DNA of 26,652 bases from a virus, in IMG/VR virus record IMGVR_UViG_3300010150_000130, positions 1-26,652 of that record. One strand, given 5' to 3'. A program made the translations under genes and the position numbers. Below, piece after piece: positions 2,352 through 20,805 of the stretch (positions are counted from its first letter, which is position 1; each line of letters begins with the position of its first letter). The notes under the pieces were generated by a model. That model was not told where the DNA came from, did not search any database, and saw only the letters and a program-made list of their open reading frames with translations.

Positions 2352-2623
2352 TCAACCCTCCATATTCCGATGCCATAGTCTGTGACTCTAACACTGTACT
2401 TCTTTCCTAAATCTTTCCCTCTACGCCAGACATGACTGCGAATGGCGTTGACCTGTGCGTCTACTTCTTCGGGTGACAGTGGTATCCCTATTACTGTACC
2501 TGTTTTGATCTCATCAAATGGCAGGTCTGCCCACACACGTGGTCTCCCTCCCTTGCTCTCAGGCAGTGGCACGTTCTCGCTAGTCCAGTACCTCTTATCG
2601 TCCTTGAGGTGTCTCTTCGTCAT
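2348..2623 (-). CDS. Small paralogous protein, LPFxxI...WR family (copy 1)
   Basis: A 91-residue protein, first gene of the leftward recombination operon. The start is the ATG of MTKRHLKDD, with GGGAGGT about 11 bases upstream. The core (LPFDEIKTGTVIGIPLSP, then VNAIRSHVWRRGKDLGKKY, then GIGIWRVE) matches the next gene block by block, so the two are paralogues. The N-terminal 25 residues are extra and include GGRPRVW. It faces the rightward resolvase gene across an 88-base divergent gap. Function unknown. Confidence 0.65.
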   Translation of the reverse strand: MTKRHLKDDKRYWTSENVPLPESKGGRPRVWADLPFDEIKTGTVIGIPLSPEEVDAQVNAIRSHVWRRGKDLGKKYSVRVTDYGIGIWRVE

Positions 2624-2711
2624 GTTCAAATGTACCTCCCGTTATTGCGAAAAAGACCTTGGTTAGTTATCCTAAGTGTCCCAAGTGACAACAACGATAA
2701 CCGAATGCAAC
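2624..2711. promoter_or_regulatory. Divergent intergenic region between recombination and replication genes
   Basis: These 88 bases separate the leftward recombination operon from the rightward resolvase and primase genes, so they should hold promoters in both directions. I see no convincing -35/-10 pair. A GTG at 2676 opens the resolvase frame early, but the part before 2712 has no clear ribosome binding site. The call rests on gene orientation only. Confidence 0.35.
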
Positions 2712-3131
2712 ATGAAACGCAAGTACATTAACAGAGATCCGTGTGTAGTAATGATAGAGGGGGAGCCAGCCTCGAAAGCAAACTCTAGGAGGTTGGTCTA
2801 TATCAAGGGACGAGCAGTGTTTATCAAGAGTAAGAAGGCATTGTCCTACAAGAAAGCATTTGAATTACAATGCCCTACTCGCAAAGATCTGTACAAGAAA
2901 GGACAGGATTTAGTGGTGGCAATGAAGATTTTTTATAAGACACGCAGACCAGACTTAGATGAGTCATTGATCTTGGATTTACTAGAGGGTCTTGTGTACG
3001 AAAATGATCGACAGGTAAAGATGAAATATATAGAGTGGGGCCTCGACAAAGAAAGGCCAAGGACGCACATAGTAATATCTACTATAGATAATAAAGAGAA
3101 AGTTATAGAAACTTTATTAGATAATATATAG
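2712..3131 (+). CDS. rusA: RusA-like Holliday junction resolvase
   Basis: A 139-residue protein (from ATG 2712) with the RusA pattern: an early GEPASKANSRR block, then RRPDLDE (Asp81, Asp83) and YENDRQVKMK (Asp99). These correspond to the catalytic acidic triad of RusA, in which Asp residues coordinate magnesium for paired nicking of four-way junctions. The length matches the usual 120-140 residues. In phages this enzyme resolves recombination intermediates and branched DNA before packaging. It sits 23 bases before the primase-helicase gene in the same operon. A GTG start at 2676 is possible; neither start has a strong ribosome binding site. Confidence 0.78.
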   Translation: MKRKYINRDPCVVMIEGEPASKANSRRLVYIKGRAVFIKSKKALSYKKAFELQCPTRKDLYKKGQDLVVAMKIFYKTRRPDLDESLILDLLEGLVYENDRQVKMKYIEWGLDKERPRTHIVISTIDNKEKVIETLLDNI

Positions 3132-3154
3132 TTAGATAAGGGAGAGTATAGGTA

Positions 3155-4921
3155 ATGTCTACTGAGATATTGCAGATAGCTAATAATCTAGGGATTGGAC
3201 AACACAAGATTGCTTGTCCAGAATGTCAGGACAGTAGGACTAAGCACAAGAGGGACAGACCTCTGTCTGTGCGAGTCGATGGCAAGGGTGTTCAGTATCG
3301 CTGTCATCACTGTGATGCAGAAGGCGGTTGGATAAATCAAGCAGAGCGAACAAACACATGGGGAAATTTTCCCCCGAAAGCAAGGGAGCAAGAGGTGAGA
3401 ACCATCAAGCCAATAGTTATCAGAGAGAACGAGACAAACCAGAAGGCGTTGGACTATCTTAAGTCTAGAAGTATTGCCGACGAGATCATCGACAAGCACA
3501 CCATACTTTCCACGTACCGATTCAACGGCAAGACAGTCCCTGCTGTTGGCTTTCCGTACAGAGATGGGAAGGATGTAACTGCTGTAAAGTGGAGAAGTGC
3601 TGACAAGCAGAAAAACTTTTCACAAGAGAACGTGTGCGAAGACTTCTTTAACCTGGACTCATATGTTGATGGCAACGATATCTTAATCTGCGAGGGAGAG
3701 TTAGATGCGTTGGCATGGATGTCATGTGACCTACCAGAAAACCTTACTGTACTTTCGATTCCCAATGGCGCTCCTGCTGGTGTGAAAGATGGAAAGATTG
3801 ATCCGAAGGATGACAATAAGTTTCGGTATATCTGGCGAGCAGAACGGCAACTAAAGCTATGTTCAAAAATAATTTTAAATACAGACGACGATGCACCAGG
3901 CAAGGCTTTGGAAAAAGAAATCATTCGGAGAGTGGGAAGCAGTAAGACTTGGCTTGTTTCTTTGGATGAATACAAAGATGCATCGGAAGCATTGGAGGCG
4001 GAAGGACAGCGTTACCTTGAGAATCAGTTGGACAAAGCCAAGGTTCTTCCAATCATCGGAGTCAACACAGTCGATGATATCTTTGATTCAGTGGTAGACC
4101 TTTATGAACAGGGACAAATCAAGGGTGCATCTACTGGGCTAACTGCTTTAGATGAATACATGCAAGTACCCCTTGGTATGCTAACGATTGTTACAGGCTT
4201 CCCTGCCTCTGGCAAATCGGATTTAGTTGATCAGCTATGCGTGAACCTAGCACGAAGCAACAACTGGAAGACTGTCTTCTGTAGCTTTGAGAAGCCAGCA
4301 GATTATCACTATGCACAGTTGAGTCAGAAGATAATAGATCGTCCATTCTTTATTGAGAATGAAGCGAGTCGTATGTCCCCAGAAGAGGTAGAGTTTAGTA
4401 GGGAAGTGATGAAAGAAAACTTTGTGTTCATGGACAACAGAAGTGGGGGAGCGTCAGACATAGACAGCATACTTAGGAAGGCATCCGAATGTGTACTCAG
4501 ATATGGAAGTAGGATACTAGTGATTGATCCTTACAACTACATTGATATGGGTGGGGGAAGAGAGACTGATGCCATTAGTCAGATGCTGACAAAGATACAG
4601 CAGTGGGCAAAGAACCACGACGCTCATGTATTTTTTGTGGCTCACCCTGCTAAGCTCAGCAATGAACGTAGGTCAGGGAAGAAGGTAGTCGTAACAGGAT
4701 TAGATATCTCAGGTTCACATACCTGGTTCTCCAAAGCCGACATCGGACTTACAGTATGGAGACATCCAAAAGATGAGGAGCCACCCGAAGCTCATGTATG
4801 GAAGGCAAGGTGGAACTGGGTAGGCAAGAATGGATCATGCCCCCTCCACTATGATAAGTTCAGTGGTAGGTGGCAGAACTACGGCCCTGCATTTGATGAC
4901 TACGACTGGGACTTTGAATAA
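3155..4921 (+). CDS. Bifunctional DNA primase-helicase (T7 gp4/Twinkle-like)
   Basis: A 588-residue protein. Cys21, Cys24, Cys50 and Cys53 form an N-terminal zinc ribbon. A TOPRIM primase core follows, with Glu180 in ILICEGELDAL and Asp244-246 in LNTDDDAPGK. The C-terminal RecA/DnaB-type helicase has Walker A GFPASGKS (348-355), Walker B ILVIDPYNYID (Asp458) and FFVAHPAK (491-499). Such proteins form a hexamer that unwinds the fork and primes lagging-strand synthesis. The start has GGAGAG about 9 bases upstream. The 3' end overlaps the convergent HD-protein gene by 22 bases. A GGGGAAATTTTCCCCC palindrome lies in frame at 3360-3375, encoding the linker WGNFPPKA between zinc ribbon and TOPRIM. 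Confidence 0.9.
   Translation: MSTEILQIANNLGIGQHKIACPECQDSRTKHKRDRPLSVRVDGKGVQYRCHHCDAEGGWINQAERTNTWGNFPPKAREQEVRTIKPIVIRENETNQKALDYLKSRSIADEIIDKHTILSTYRFNGKTVPAVGFPYRDGKDVTAVKWRSADKQKNFSQENVCEDFFNLDSYVDGNDILICEGELDALAWMSCDLPENLTVLSIPNGAPAGVKDGKIDPKDDNKFRYIWRAERQLKLCSKIILNTDDDAPGKALEKEIIRRVGSSKTWLVSLDEYKDASEALEAEGQRYLENQLDKAKVLPIIGVNTVDDIFDSVVDLYEQGQIKGASTGLTALDEYMQVPLGMLTIVTGFPASGKSDLVDQLCVNLARSNNWKTVFCSFEKPADYHYAQLSQKIIDRPFFIENEASRMSPEEVEFSREVMKENFVFMDNRSGGASDIDSILRKASECVLRYGSRILVIDPYNYIDMGGGRETDAISQMLTKIQQWAKNHDAHVFFVAHPAKLSNERRSGKKVVVTGLDISGSHTWFSKADIGLTVWRHPKDEEPPEAHVWKARWNWVGKNGSCPLHYDKFSGRWQNYGPAFDDYDWDFE
3360..3375. repeat. G4A3T4C5 palindrome, copy 1 (inside primase gene)
   Basis: GGGGAAATTTTCCCCC, a near-perfect palindrome, codes for part of the linker between zinc ribbon and TOPRIM. 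It is far from the other copies, which cluster at 13.0-16.8 kb. Confidence 0.6.
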
Positions 4922-7206: not shown

Positions 7207-7378
7207 CTTCGCCTCTAGACCCACCAAATACATTTGCCAACCTCTTCGGTATTACCACAGTATCATTGCACGTACCACAGCACTGCCCAACCTTTACTGG
7301 TAGTGCGTTGTTTCCAAATCCTAGAATATCGTAGCCACATATTACACACTTCATTTTTTGCCCGTGTTCATCAATCAT
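7187..7378 (-). CDS. Small zinc-ribbon protein
   Basis: A 63-residue protein with two Cys pairs, MKCVICGYDI and GQCCGTCND, framing GFGNNALPVKV. This is a rubredoxin-like or zinc-ribbon arrangement common in phage and plasmid small proteins (CxxC, about 20 residues, CxxC, then PKRLANV). Zinc binding is likely from the Cys spacing; the partner is unknown. AGGAGAGG precedes the ATG at 7378, and the start overlaps the end of a very small basic ORF upstream. Confidence 0.65.
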   Translation of the reverse strand: MIDEHGQKMKCVICGYDILGFGNNALPVKVGQCCGTCNDTVVIPKRLANVFGGSRGEDESQTE

Positions 7379-16300: not shown

Positions 16301-16738
16301 ATGCCTAACCCCAACACGATTAGCCCGAAGCAGTCTGCATTCGCTGGTTTCGTAGCATCTGGTAACAGCTATACAGATGCCTACAAACTAGCGTACAATG
16401 CAGAGAACATGAGCAAGCAAGTGCTGTACAATAAGTCATCGCAACTAGCAAAGAACCCGAAGGTGAGGGAAGCAATCGAAGCACTCAAGTCGAATGACAA
16501 GGTAGCACAAGAGGCTCACGAAAAGCTAAGCAATGACTGGATCATTGAGAAACTACAGGGCGAGGCAGTGAACGAGAGCAACCCACCTAGTAGCAGGATC
16601 AGGGCGTTGGAATTGCTAGGTAAAACAGGTGGGCTGTTCGATGATAGCACACACGTTACGTTTGAACAGCGTAGTCCAGAGGACATAGAGAAGGAGTTGA
16701 TGGAGAAGCTCACTGGATTCATGGTAGTGGATGCATGA
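16301..16738 (+). CDS. Terminase small subunit-like protein (Terminase_2 type)
   Basis: A 145-residue protein. ISPKQSAFAGFVASGNSYTD followed by AYKLAYN and QLAKNPKVREAIEAL match the N-terminal helix-turn-helix region of Terminase_2-type small subunits, and SSRIRALELLGKTGGLF is the usual second block. Small subunits form rings that recognise the packaging site and regulate the large subunit. It is odd that the large terminase gene lies 2.57 kb downstream with an oppositely oriented gene between. There is no ribosome binding site before the ATG. The family call is good; whether it works with the 19312 terminase is inferred. Confidence 0.75.
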   Translation: MPNPNTISPKQSAFAGFVASGNSYTDAYKLAYNAENMSKQVLYNKSSQLAKNPKVREAIEALKSNDKVAQEAHEKLSNDWIIEKLQGEAVNESNPPSSRIRALELLGKTGGLFDDSTHVTFEQRSPEDIEKELMEKLTGFMVVDA

Positions 16739-16795: not shown

Positions 16796-16823
16796 TAGAA
16801 AATCCTAACTAACCCCATAGCTA

Positions 16824-17143
16824 GACACCCGCACCTCAATGCGGACACCCGTACCTCATTCGGGAAAGAAAATGCTGGTCCTGCGTGGAACGCAAAGACA
16901 AGATAAGATGCTTTGGTTTTTCGCAATGGCGAAAACTTCTGCATCCATATCGAATTAGGAAATATCTTGTCGATCCCTCTAGGATCGTAAGAGATATTTT
17001 CTGATTTGATATGGATGGGAGAAAAAGGGCGTAGTTAATCCAGGGAATTTTCAGGGCATTGCCGTGGTTGGCAATGGTCTGGAATATTGTCTGGATTAGC
17101 TCGCTCCATATGATGTTGCCTTTAATTCTGGCAAAGCCAGAAA
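16824..17143. ncRNA. Left structured flank of the 17.2-18.1 kb gene: tandem hairpins
   Basis: This gene-free stretch is packed with inverted repeats: a 20-base tandem repeat (16824-16863, 16 of 20 identical) with each unit forming a hairpin with CCTCA in the loop; TGCGT/ACGCA; TTTTCGC/GCGAAAA; a 10-bp stem 16942-16951 with 17008-17017 enclosing two inner stems; an 8-bp stem 17036-17043 with 17091-17098 enclosing CATTGCC/GGCAATG; and TTCTGGC/GCCAGAA. Extended pairing at 17034-17100 includes T.G wobbles on the plus strand, hinting at plus-strand RNA. Candidate structured RNA; strand, ends and class unknown. Confidence 0.45.
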
Positions 17144-17148
17144 GCATG

Positions 17149-17193
17149 AAAAAAGGGAAGACCACCTGGCTGTGTCTACCAGATGGCCTTCCC
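17149..17193 (-). terminator. Intrinsic terminator of the 17221-18102 gene
   Basis: A 15-bp stem (17155-17169 with 17179-17193) is followed leftward by six T. Two A.C mismatches on the plus strand become G.U wobbles in the leftward RNA, so the stem is fully paired only in that direction. It begins 27 bases after the gene's stop. Confidence 0.8.
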
Positions 17194-17196
17194 TAA

Positions 17197-17220
17197 GCAC
17201 TATTCCCTCAATAGTAGTGC
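17197..17220 (-). other. Hairpin abutting the stop codon
   Basis: GCACTATT...AATAGTAGTGC forms a bulged stem with a CCCTC loop (plus strand), directly adjoining the TAG stop at 17221-17223. Confidence 0.4.
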
Positions 17221-18102
17221 CTATTTACCAGATCGCGTGTCCTTATAGGAAATGCGACTTACTTCAGGGGTAAACTCATCTTCCAAACGCGTTATGGCAC
17301 TACTAACCTGCGTGAGGTAACGAGATACAACGCCCTTTGCAGAACTAAGAGTGTCATAAAGCATCGACGCTCTCATCTGCGAGACCTTCATGTCCACAGT
17401 GTACTTATTCTTCTTCGTGGTGCCGAAGGTTGCCGTGGTCTTAGCGTCGTTGCTTTTTACCGAGTCGCCAAGATAGTAGAGGAGATCTCCGAGGGCAGAG
17501 TCTTCCTGCGCTCCATGACCGACGGAGACTGCCAGATCACTCTTGGCGATGAGATGCTGAACCCCACTCTTCCACACTAGCTTCCTGGCACCCCAGGAAG
17601 CATTGGGTTCACCTGGTACCCAAGGGCTACACATTGCCCTGGCATCATCGCGGATTCGAGGATTAGGAGAAAGGAGACACACCCCCAAATTCTGGAACTC
17701 GCGACGCTTCTCCCGAATCGCCTTGTTGGTGTTCTTCCCCATGTCGTTCCGATCAAATGGGGGTGTTTCTCCTTGCTCCAGGAGAAGATCATGCAGGTTA
17801 TGGCCCGCTTCACGGACCTCGTCCACCGCGAAGGAAAACGCATACTCCAATAGCTCGGTAACATGAGCATGATCTTCGGTGGCCCGAAGAGTTCCCTTCT
17901 GAGTGAATAGAGGGTCAAGACTAACTACCAGGCCCGCGATTAGATTAATCGTCGAGATTCGGGCAGTGTCGCCCAACTGTCTCCAGGTGGCTCCTGCCTC
18001 TGACGCTTTCGCAAGGTCTTCACCCATCGCGTGGCACTTCTTCTTAATGGATCTTCTCACCTGGAGCAGTGAGACAGCACTAACAGATTTCTTGTTCGAC
18101 AT
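17221..18102 (-). CDS. Orphan protein of the structured island
   Basis: A 293-residue protein of no family I recognise. The start MSNKKSVSAVSLLQ has AAGGAG 8 bases upstream. The N-terminus is basic (VRRSIKKKC); most of the rest predicts as helix, with a middle region rich in Pro, Trp and Cys (AMCSPWVPGEPNASWGARK). There is no transmembrane segment, nuclease, transposase or reverse-transcriptase motif. GC content by eye is near 50-55%, above the terminase and portal genes, suggesting a separate origin. The coding sequence also contains hairpins such as GCTTCCTGG/CCAGGAAGC (9 bp, 4-base loop). The gene runs against the late operon between the two terminase-like genes, with its own leader and terminator, like a cargo or mobile cassette. 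Confidence 0.72.
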   Translation of the reverse strand: MSNKKSVSAVSLLQVRRSIKKKCHAMGEDLAKASEAGATWRQLGDTARISTINLIAGLVVSLDPLFTQKGTLRATEDHAHVTELLEYAFSFAVDEVREAGHNLHDLLLEQGETPPFDRNDMGKNTNKAIREKRREFQNLGVCLLSPNPRIRDDARAMCSPWVPGEPNASWGARKLVWKSGVQHLIAKSDLAVSVGHGAQEDSALGDLLYYLGDSVKSNDAKTTATFGTTKKNKYTVDMKVSQMRASMLYDTLSSAKGVVSRYLTQVSSAITRLEDEFTPEVSRISYKDTRSGK

Positions 18103-18120
18103 ATATGTACTCCTTATTAA

Positions 18121-18149
18121 ATAAAAAACATCAGAAGTAGTTCTTCTGA
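18121..18149 (-). terminator. Terminator-like hairpin in leader, candidate attenuator
   Basis: TCAGAAG (18131-18137) pairs with CTTCTGA (18143-18149), and leftward the stem is followed by TG and six T. It lies between the structured leader and the AAGGAG ribosome binding site of the gene starting at 18102, which is the layout of an attenuator or of a separate upstream RNA ending before the gene. The stem is short, so efficiency is uncertain. Confidence 0.5.
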
Positions 18150-18150
18150 C

Positions 18151-18573
18151 ATGTTGCAGAAGGTGCGAGTGGCAAAACTTAGTCAACATCTATGGTCTAC
18201 TCACCTTAAGTGAGTGGCTCAGACCATAAGGAGAAGACACATCGACCCCCTGGAGGGTCGCATGTTCTTCTCTGTGATGTTGCTAAGTTTTAGATTACTC
18301 AGCCGATGTTGGCTGATTAATCGGCCATATCCCTAGTTCCCTCCAGTCCACGCAGAGTTCCTACTCGCACAACATTTTTCACCCTGAGAAAGTGAATGGA
18401 AGGGAAGAGAATCCTCAGATTCTCTTGGAAGGGTGGGGGATGAGCTTTCATAAGAGAGCTTCCATTGAGATGAAAAAACATCGACCCCTCAGATGGTCGC
18501 ATTTTTTTCGACGAGAGCGCTCTGGAAGCTCTCAGCTTTTGATTGCAGGCCAGTGGGGGGGAACCCCCCGCTG
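18151..18573. ncRNA. Right structured flank: branched RNA-like fold
   Basis: Nested pairing is extensive. GTGCGAGTGG (18163-18172) pairs with 18360-18370. Inside it, 18174-18190 pairs with 18276-18291 (16 bp, one bulge) and encloses two arms, 18191-18228 and 18232-18271, giving a three-way junction. Then come 18293-18322 (GATTA/TAATC and TCAGCC/GGCTGA), 18405-18426 (8 bp, loop CCTCAG), 18473-18508 and a G-rich stem 18551-18573. The hairpin core CATCGACC...GGTCGCAT occurs twice (18240-18264 and 18479-18503). In leftward transcription this would be the leader of the 17221-18102 gene. No known RNA class could be assigned. Confidence 0.5.
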
Positions 18574-18853
18574 TGCCGTCGCTGTTGTCTGTATTTATAA
18601 ACAGTGTTTTGCACATTCTACCACCAATTTTTAGCTATATTGCAGTTTTATGTCATTTCTATTCTTTGACTAGGGGCGCGCTAGATACTAACTTGATTAT
18701 CTAGATTTCTTATATGGATAATAAATCTAGATATTTTATATAGATAATCTACTATAGATTATCTATATATAGAGAAGGGGGAAATTTTTTGAAGATTTTT
18801 TCTATAATAATTTGCGCTCTCCTGCTTTCTTCTTGTAGTTTAAGAACAGAGCA
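18574..18853. other. AT-rich gap with inverted repeats before late operon
   Basis: No ORF of note. TATCTAGATTT (18698-18708) and AAATCTAGATA (18723-18733) form an 11-bp inverted repeat; TAGATAATCT (18741-18750) and AGATTATCTA (18756-18765) form a 10-bp one with a 5-base loop. GATTATCTA or its complement occurs three times. TTGACT at 18666-18671 could be a -35 box for the late operon, but the -10 is weak. Position near the terminase genes makes a packaging site or late regulatory region plausible. Confidence 0.45.
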
Positions 18854-19311: not shown

Positions 19312-20805
19312 ATGCAACTAGATATAGATACTGTTACAAAGCATCTTCACTTGCTGTCTCCAAGCAAGCAAAAAGAAGTTCTCACGCTTCTTGATCAGTT
19401 AAGTGCCGCAAAAAATAAAGCTTTGTCTCAGAAGGACTTTCTTTCTTTTGTAAAAGAAGTATGGCCTGCCTTTATTGAAGGCGCTCATCACAAAATCATG
19501 GCAGATGCGTTCAATAGAATTGCCGATGGGACCCTCAAAAGGCTTATAGTAAATATGCCACCACGACATACTAAGTCAGAATTTGCATCACATCTTTTTC
19601 CTGCGTGGTACTTGGGAAGATTTCCAGATAGGAAGGTTATTCAGACTGCTCATACAGCAGAGCTTGCAGTAGGCTTTGGTCGTAAGGTACGTAACTTAGT
19701 AGGCTCAGAAGTTTATCAAAAAATATTTAATGATGTTTCTTTGAGTACAGACTCCAAAGCTGCAGGTAGGTGGAACACCAATCAGGACGGTGACTACTTT
19801 GCTATTGGTGTTGGGGGTGCTGTAACGGGTAAGGGTGCTGACATCTTGATCGTAGATGATCCACATTCTGAGCAGGAAGCTGCGCTTAATGATCCATCCG
19901 TATATGATAAAACGTATGAATGGTATACTTCAGGTCCTCGTCAGAGGCTACAGCCTGGGGGTGCCATATGTTTAGTTATGACCCGTTGGTCAAAAAAGGA
20001 TCTAACGGGAAGTATTATTAAGGCATCTATAGAAAGAGGTGGTGCGGATGAGTGGGAAGTTATAGAGTTTCCCGCAATACTTCCTAGCGGCAAACCAATG
20101 TGGCCTGGGTTCTGGCCAATTGATCAGCTTGAGGCATTGAAGGCGGAACTGCCCGTCGGTAAGTGGGCTGCCCAGTATCAACAAGATCCCACCTCTGAAG
20201 AATCTGCAATCATCAAACGTGAGTGGTGGCAGGAGTGGCCTAAGAAGAATCCTCCTTCGTGTGAATTTGTTATTCAATCTTGGGATACTGCGTTTCTTGC
20301 AAAGGAGACTGCAGATTATAGTGCGTGTACTACATGGGGAGTTTTTACAGATGAAAATGATGTGGCAAACATTATTCTTTTAGATGCGTTTCAAGAACGC
20401 CTAGAGTTTCCTGACTTGAAGTCTAGGGCCTATGAAATGTATAAAGAATATGATCCAGACGCTTTTATTGTTGAGGCCAAAGCAGCAGGCACTCCTTTAA
20501 TTTTTGAGTTACGTAGAATGGGAATACCTGTAGGGGAGTATACCCCTAGCAGGGGTAAAGATAAGATTGCTAGAGTAAATGCTGTATCAGATTTATTTTC
20601 ATCTGGGCATGTTTGGGCGCCTAAGACGAGATGGGCCGAAATGGTTATAGAAGAGTTCGCTGCGTTTCCCACTGGCGACCATGATGATTTAGTAGACTCT
20701 TCGACACAGGCACTGTTGCGTTTTCGTCAGGGTGGATTTATCCGCATAGAAAGCGATGAAGAGGAAGAAGAGTTCCTTCTTAATAGAAAAGCAGATTATT
20801 ATTAA
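19312..20805 (+). CDS. terL: Terminase large subunit
   Basis: A 497-residue packaging motor and nuclease. The ATPase part has a terminase-type Walker A, NMPPRHTKS (81-89), Walker B LIVDDPH (Asp182/183) and coupling motif LVMTRW (222-226). The RNase H-like nuclease part has IQSWDTAF (Asp325), the FIVEAK block (Glu388) and GDHDDLVDS (Asp456, 458, 459). The WDTA... and ERLEFPDLK blocks fit the terminase C-terminal family used by many podo- and siphoviruses. It hydrolyses ATP to pump DNA into the prohead and cuts concatemers. No obvious ribosome binding site precedes the ATG; coupling to the gene ending 3 bases upstream is likely. Confidence 0.92.
   Translation: MQLDIDTVTKHLHLLSPSKQKEVLTLLDQLSAAKNKALSQKDFLSFVKEVWPAFIEGAHHKIMADAFNRIADGTLKRLIVNMPPRHTKSEFASHLFPAWYLGRFPDRKVIQTAHTAELAVGFGRKVRNLVGSEVYQKIFNDVSLSTDSKAAGRWNTNQDGDYFAIGVGGAVTGKGADILIVDDPHSEQEAALNDPSVYDKTYEWYTSGPRQRLQPGGAICLVMTRWSKKDLTGSIIKASIERGGADEWEVIEFPAILPSGKPMWPGFWPIDQLEALKAELPVGKWAAQYQQDPTSEESAIIKREWWQEWPKKNPPSCEFVIQSWDTAFLAKETADYSACTTWGVFTDENDVANIILLDAFQERLEFPDLKSRAYEMYKEYDPDAFIVEAKAAGTPLIFELRRMGIPVGEYTPSRGKDKIARVNAVSDLFSSGHVWAPKTRWAEMVIEEFAAFPTGDHDDLVDSSTQALLRFRQGGFIRIESDEEEEEFLLNRKADYY

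Follow-up and report, generated by a model that had tools for sequence, protein, structure and literature searches.

The virus record IMGVR_UViG_3300010150_000130 (26.7 kb; its 26,652 nucleotides are referred to here as the window, the phage as W, and its relatives by L numbers) carries between its terminase genes a cassette at about 16859–18535 that is one allele at a fixed site and no one-off insertion. From the sequence comparisons we give about an even chance to its being an accessory cassette of the moron type that includes RNA elements, is swapped by recombination, and probably serves phage-phage or phage-host conflict. The protein family and the RNA elements are new here, and the kind to which they belong, the moron-like accessory cassette, is a known one; no earlier description of such a cassette was found in the openly accessible literature, subscription papers being mostly outside the scope of the search.

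Replacement of the cassette between terS and terL

The two terminase genes are transcribed rightwards, and a 293-residue open reading frame with an ATG start lies between them in the leftward orientation (17221–18102, − strand). The left neighbor (16301–16738, + strand) matches the PHROG 51 terminase small subunit (1.4e-11), which supports its assignment as TerS where the Pfam match is sub-threshold, and the right neighbor (19312–20805, + strand) matches the PHROG 38 terminase large subunit (7.8e-105) and is also backed by Pfam (8e-12). Comparison of W with L121 shows that TerS and TerL are 93% and 92% identical, whereas the cassette proteins are only 38% identical. The DNA of the two phages is ~86% identical up to coordinate 16858 and again from 18535, and in the intervening segment nothing aligns except a 48-nt piece of the reading frame and a hairpin with a GUGGUU loop.

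The left edge, at which the similarity to L121 stops, consists of two copies of GACACCCG(C/T)ACCTCA (16824–16858, + strand), and ACCCGTACCTC of this edge is present in seven of the gaps between terS and terL. At the opposite end, the right edge and the conserved region preceding TerL (18535–18801, + strand) are 86.5% identical to L121 and include a box at 18599–18655 and AT-rich palindromes at 18695–18775. The box, ATAAACAGTGTTTTGCACATTC, and the palindromes (together 18599–18775) are strongly conserved in the relatives, and this is perhaps the TerL promoter region. A different palindrome, GGGGAAATTTTCCCC, occurs with no more than three mismatches at seven places in the window (3358, 13062, 14674, 15431, 15818, 16145, and 16779, with 0.07 matches expected), mostly intergenic and in one case right behind terS, and it is possibly a phage-wide terminator or operator.

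Divergence of the W/L121 type is seen across phages whose terminase genes are 92–96% identical, with cassette proteins that are 22–38% identical and DNA that is mostly unalignable. For example, L010, L137, and L147 have 93–96% DNA identity on the terL side, yet the cassette protein of L010 shares only 35% and 23% identity with those of the other two phages. The reverse pattern is shown by L007 and L122, with a dS of 0.13 for the cassette and 0.32 for TerL. Both patterns presumably arise because recombination in the conserved flanks exchanges the cassette. Hypermutation inside one phage was considered and rejected, as versions of the same phage in other metagenomes show no more than a few base differences in the cassette.

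The dN/dS ratio of the cassette reading frame is 0.29–0.60 in related pairs, compared to 0.04–0.06 for TerL and 0.08–0.10 for TerS, indicating a real gene that is fast-changing; its rate of evolution, under purifying selection, is roughly ten times that of TerL. Core packaging genes that are ~90% identical, with an embedded gene and RNA replaced wholesale, reflect the behavior of an allelic specificity locus. Loci of this type are usually the sign of an arms race.

Within the clade, defined as phages with a TerL at least 79% identical, the TerS–TerL gap is 1.7–6.6 kb in all 15 measurable members (W included), a number from which members with TerS cut by a contig end were left out; in L121, L122, L093, L132, L137, L147, and L152 the gaps are 2.5–4.1 kb. 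Most gaps hold a reading frame of ~220–380 residues, usually leftward, and no empty site was seen among the gaps measured, such that a cassette occupies every one of them and its alleles differ. The preliminary description took small and large terminase genes to be usually adjacent, and this does not hold: they are never so in the clade, they are adjacent, without a cassette, in relatives with a TerL 65–70% identical (gaps of 89–475 nt, with the exception of 1.4 kb in L047), and genes again sit between them in cultured relatives at 56–60% TerL identity. The separation of terS and terL is thus not special to the clade.

The constant position of the cassette between terS and terL throughout the clade might suggest that its RNA or protein is a cofactor of packaging, forming part of the terminase motor as the phi29 pRNA does. 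This is improbable, however, as the protein and the RNA have been exchanged almost in full beside a TerS and a TerL that barely change, which makes a packaging RNA unlikely, and the relatives at 65–70% TerL identity do without the cassette. Even less probable is the insertion of a mobile, homing, or satellite-like element at this place. The sharp edges, the foreign-like composition, and the box repeated at the left edge are features that such an element could have, but nothing in the cassette was recognized as an integrase, transposase, homing nuclease, or replication gene, its only large reading frame being one that lacks a family match; all measured sites in the clade are occupied, and no copy was found at any second locus. 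What stands of the inserted RNA-protein unit proposed in the preliminary description is therefore a discrete cassette containing RNA elements and a protein gene, as seen from the break with L121 between 16858 and 18535 and from conserved flank hairpins; its suggested mobile or satellite-like nature is not supported.

Several gaps have contents of other kinds. That of L022 contains two tandem related reading frames on the + strand (2456–3154 and 3827–4627) that are 24% identical, showing that the cassette gene can undergo duplication and inversion. In L028 (3683–4498), L039 (3937–4752), L038, and L041 the hypervariable reading frame is replaced by a rightward one that is 77–99% identical among these phages and which may resemble DUF932. 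L137 and L148 have a further reading frame upstream on the strand of the cassette gene, stopping just before the leader hairpins and ending in an acidic DALPF or DDLPF-like tail as in single-stranded-DNA-binding proteins. G-rich (GGTGG)n tracts are present in L007 (1–330) and L122 (8530–8790), with three TTACTATAGATAGGGCGAAGC-like copies within 250 nt, and the G run of L007 may be a sequencing artefact.

The cassette gene and its product

The cassette gene belongs to a family of mostly helical proteins with nine members (W, L121, L007, L122, L010, L132, L137, L147, and L148). No match to this family was found in Pfam, PHROGs, NCBIfam, PADLOC, or PDB sequences, nor by tblastn in cultured phages and plasmids, and ten cassette proteins compared with the PADLOC defence models gave no match at an E value of 1, so that the initial view of a leftward gene without a recognizable family is upheld over the databases searched. 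Searches of bacterial species genomes with the protein pattern and with the stem-loop pattern yielded no bacterial or prophage home for either. A model built from five sequences is a helix bundle (pLDDT 71, pTM 0.70) in which residues 190–241 are unreliable, and the single-sequence fold of the W protein (pLDDT 44) is of no use. Foldseek and VIA-align comparisons of the model, unreliable at residues 190–241, returned only generic helical bundles at background level, the best being a designed protein with a Z of 9.1. By these sequence and fold searches the nine-member family is a new one, lacking a sequence-family or clear fold match.

Reading frames in the same place but outside the nine-member family are present in L008/L012, L019/L123, L020, L043, L025, L029, and others. 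Pairwise HHalign and a Gibbs motif search over these positional reading frames found no secure similarity to the W family and gave no support to a single superfamily for all of them; that of L020 alone reaches an E value of 0.04 against the nine-member profile.

The gene has its own expression signals. A Shine-Dalgarno sequence, AAGGAG, can be read seven bases ahead of the ATG (18110–18115, − strand), and an intrinsic terminator follows the reading frame (17154–17194, − strand) with 17 pairs and then a T run, an architecture shared in relatives; both had been noted at the outset. A strong terminator of their own is found for 14 of 18 cassette reading frames and for none of 87 control reading frames of the same genomes. 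The GC content of the W coding part is 0.52 compared to 0.43 in TerL, in agreement with the GC-richness first described, and GC3 is above that of TerL in 16 of 17 cassettes (mean +0.16). Phage morons are accessory genes that lie among core genes and bring a promoter and a terminator of their own, and the terminator and GC3 values correspond to moron anatomy, save that neither an empty site nor a promoter was found. A scan for consensus promoters of the sigma-70 type, the only type covered, gave hits at chance level, and the lack of both an empty site and a convincing promoter argues against a classical moron, which should show both.

Structured flanks and elements conserved as RNA

Both flanks of the gene are densely folded, as initially proposed, and on both strands they are far beyond dinucleotide shuffles, with z-scores of −8.0 (− strand) and −7.6 (+ strand) for the right flank (18103–18600) and of −8.9 and −10.6, respectively, for the left flank (16800–17220). 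Folding well beyond shuffled sequence near the reading frame is seen at only 13 of 20 loci, which counts against the explanation favored here. The coding part itself has a z of −3.2 against dinucleotide shuffles and of −4.6 against codon-preserving shuffles over its first 600 nt, and includes a perfect 9-bp hairpin that had been pointed out early and is located at 17581–17602. A folded coding region is not a consistent trait of the family, as the mean z is −2.7 compared to −1.8 in TerL, and was dropped.

The right flank has a nested domain at 18151–18375, composed of a closing stem, a 16-bp stem, and two arms; the three-way junction recognized there previously is predicted on either strand (z of −6.1 and −7.2). 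One arm is a bulged CGACC..GGTCG hairpin (18233–18270, family D1), a second copy of which (18472–18509) lies in a second structured domain at 18454–18533. Closer to the gene, a leader hairpin followed by a T run (18128–18152, − strand) precedes the ribosome binding site and is attenuator-like. The left flank contains a long hairpin of ~37 pairs at 16937–17023 (+ strand), with 26-nt arms at 16942–16967 and 16992–17017 and with three wobble pairs on the + strand and none on the − strand. Beside it, at 17029–17104 (+ strand), is the conserved hairpin with the GUGGUU loop, which is common to L121 (1249–1301).

Some of these flank elements are, as judged by their substitution patterns, conserved as RNA. 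In the W/L121 hairpin the GUGGUU loop, the internal loop, and a G-G mismatch are identical, and the stem has four compensatory changes and one wobble change with no pair broken (permutation P 0.006, after a stem extension confined to W was removed by hand); the wobbles fall on the + strand. The flanks of L008 and L012 form rods of 466–507 nt with 170–185 pairs (z of −20.8 and −23.9), in which fewer pairs are broken than in a control matched for substitutions (73 versus 107±6), an effect absent from TerL. A stem-loop, GGUAUGCUNCACCGCC, is common to L008/L012 and L137/L148 and its stem covaries, with five of 11 pairs being of more than one type and two broken cells of 44; the right flanks of these two pairs of phages otherwise barely align, and their proteins have no detected similarity. 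A further motif, UUACUA...GGGCGAAGC, is shared by L007, L122, and L121, the flanks of L007 and L122 being too alike for a covariation test. Three hairpin classes were distinguished: GUGGUU, UAUGCUNCACCG, and UUACUA...GGGCGAAGC.

The inverted repeats could also act as DNA, for instance as a replication origin or as a packaging or recombination site, and we assign this only a small probability. Both strands fold nearly equally in many places and the left flanks lack an overall wobble bias, as would be expected of DNA; against this are the wobbles and conserved loops of the W/L121 hairpin and the rods of L008/L012, in which G-U is far above A-C on the + strand and right-flank wobbles favor that strand by 27:8 and 23:8. 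An unbiased count of wobbles over all loci (16:17 on the left, 76:46 on the right, and 31:22 in controls) gave no support to a single strand for all structured flanks. The + strand assignment is limited to the W/L121 hairpin and the L008/L012 rods.

Rfam covariance models run on the W window and on the loci of 13 relatives gave no match at the gathering score, with the exception of a tmRNA-like one in L025. This is a 78-nt match in the TerS–TerL gap (7239–7316) to the ends of the tmRNA model, with 60.6 bits and comprising the tRNA-like part only; ARAGORN reports neither a tRNA nor a tmRNA there.

The flanks might alternatively serve to regulate and insulate a stand-alone accessory gene, with terminators separating the convergent terS and cassette gene, an attenuator and mRNA-stabilizing hairpins ahead of the gene, and a protein that works alone. 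This is the chief alternative, although we consider it somewhat unlikely. It would account for the very strong terminators and for leader hairpins placed ahead of the ribosome binding site; the W leader hairpin has the form of a terminator, a leader hairpin is conserved in L010, L137, and L148, and the hairpins that immediately precede the start codon exceed those of controls in strength (P 6e-4), though not in all members. Rods of 170–185 pairs, multi-arm stars, and conserved-loop hairpins without a T run, however, exceed what a terminator needs.

Possible function and comparison with known systems

In the explanation we favor, a swapped moron-like cassette with RNA elements, the clade would keep between terS and terL a fast-evolving gene equipped with a leader hairpin and a terminator of its own. 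Recombination within the conserved stretches at either end would exchange the whole cassette, so that the protein and the RNA are altered jointly and the neighbor genes stay nearly identical. The cassette would most likely take part in conflict, either excluding rival phages or countering host defence, a role suggested by its rapid evolution beside conserved core genes. The small protein may act on a fast-changing target, with the structured RNAs as its partner, as a mimic of the target, or as a regulator; that RNA and protein act together is suggested by their common replacement, and if they do, the cassette would represent a phage ribonucleoprotein module of a new kind. We also entertain, as a rather unlikely proposal, a new class of phage ribonucleoprotein conflict systems, in which a small helical protein and co-inherited fast-changing RNAs, namely hairpin stars and dsRNA-like rods, would be kept and swapped at the terS–terL junction. 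Such systems might, for example, exclude rival phages, or might decoy or inhibit host immunity that senses RNA in the manner of cabRNA/CBASS.

The three-way junction and the nearness to packaging genes recall the phi29 pRNA, but there is no Rfam match and the cassette diverges while the terminase does not. Type III toxin-antitoxin systems likewise have a protein gene beside a structured RNA; the cassette differs in that tandem antitoxin repeats do not precede its gene and the product matches no known family of toxins. GOLLD and ROOL are candidates for large, structured noncoding RNAs encoded by phages (PMC12286853), whereas the cassette flanks are shorter, have no Rfam match, and are paired with a protein gene. 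The staphylococcal phage cabRNA is a structured RNA from the terS–terL region that differs in sequence between phages and activates a CBASS cyclase (PMC10686824). The cassette resembles it in having structured sequence in that region that differs between phages, although cabRNA derives from the terS/terL coding sequence itself, with no accessory protein gene inside, and the cassette is known from sequence alone; that the staphylococcal region makes an RNA triggering CBASS immunity is a lead for the cassette (PMC10686824). With phage morons the cassette shares a stand-alone gene, a strong terminator of its own, an odd composition, a place between core genes, and a usually opposite orientation, and it departs from them in its presence in every clade member with no empty site, its block-replaced alleles, and its extensive structured flanks.
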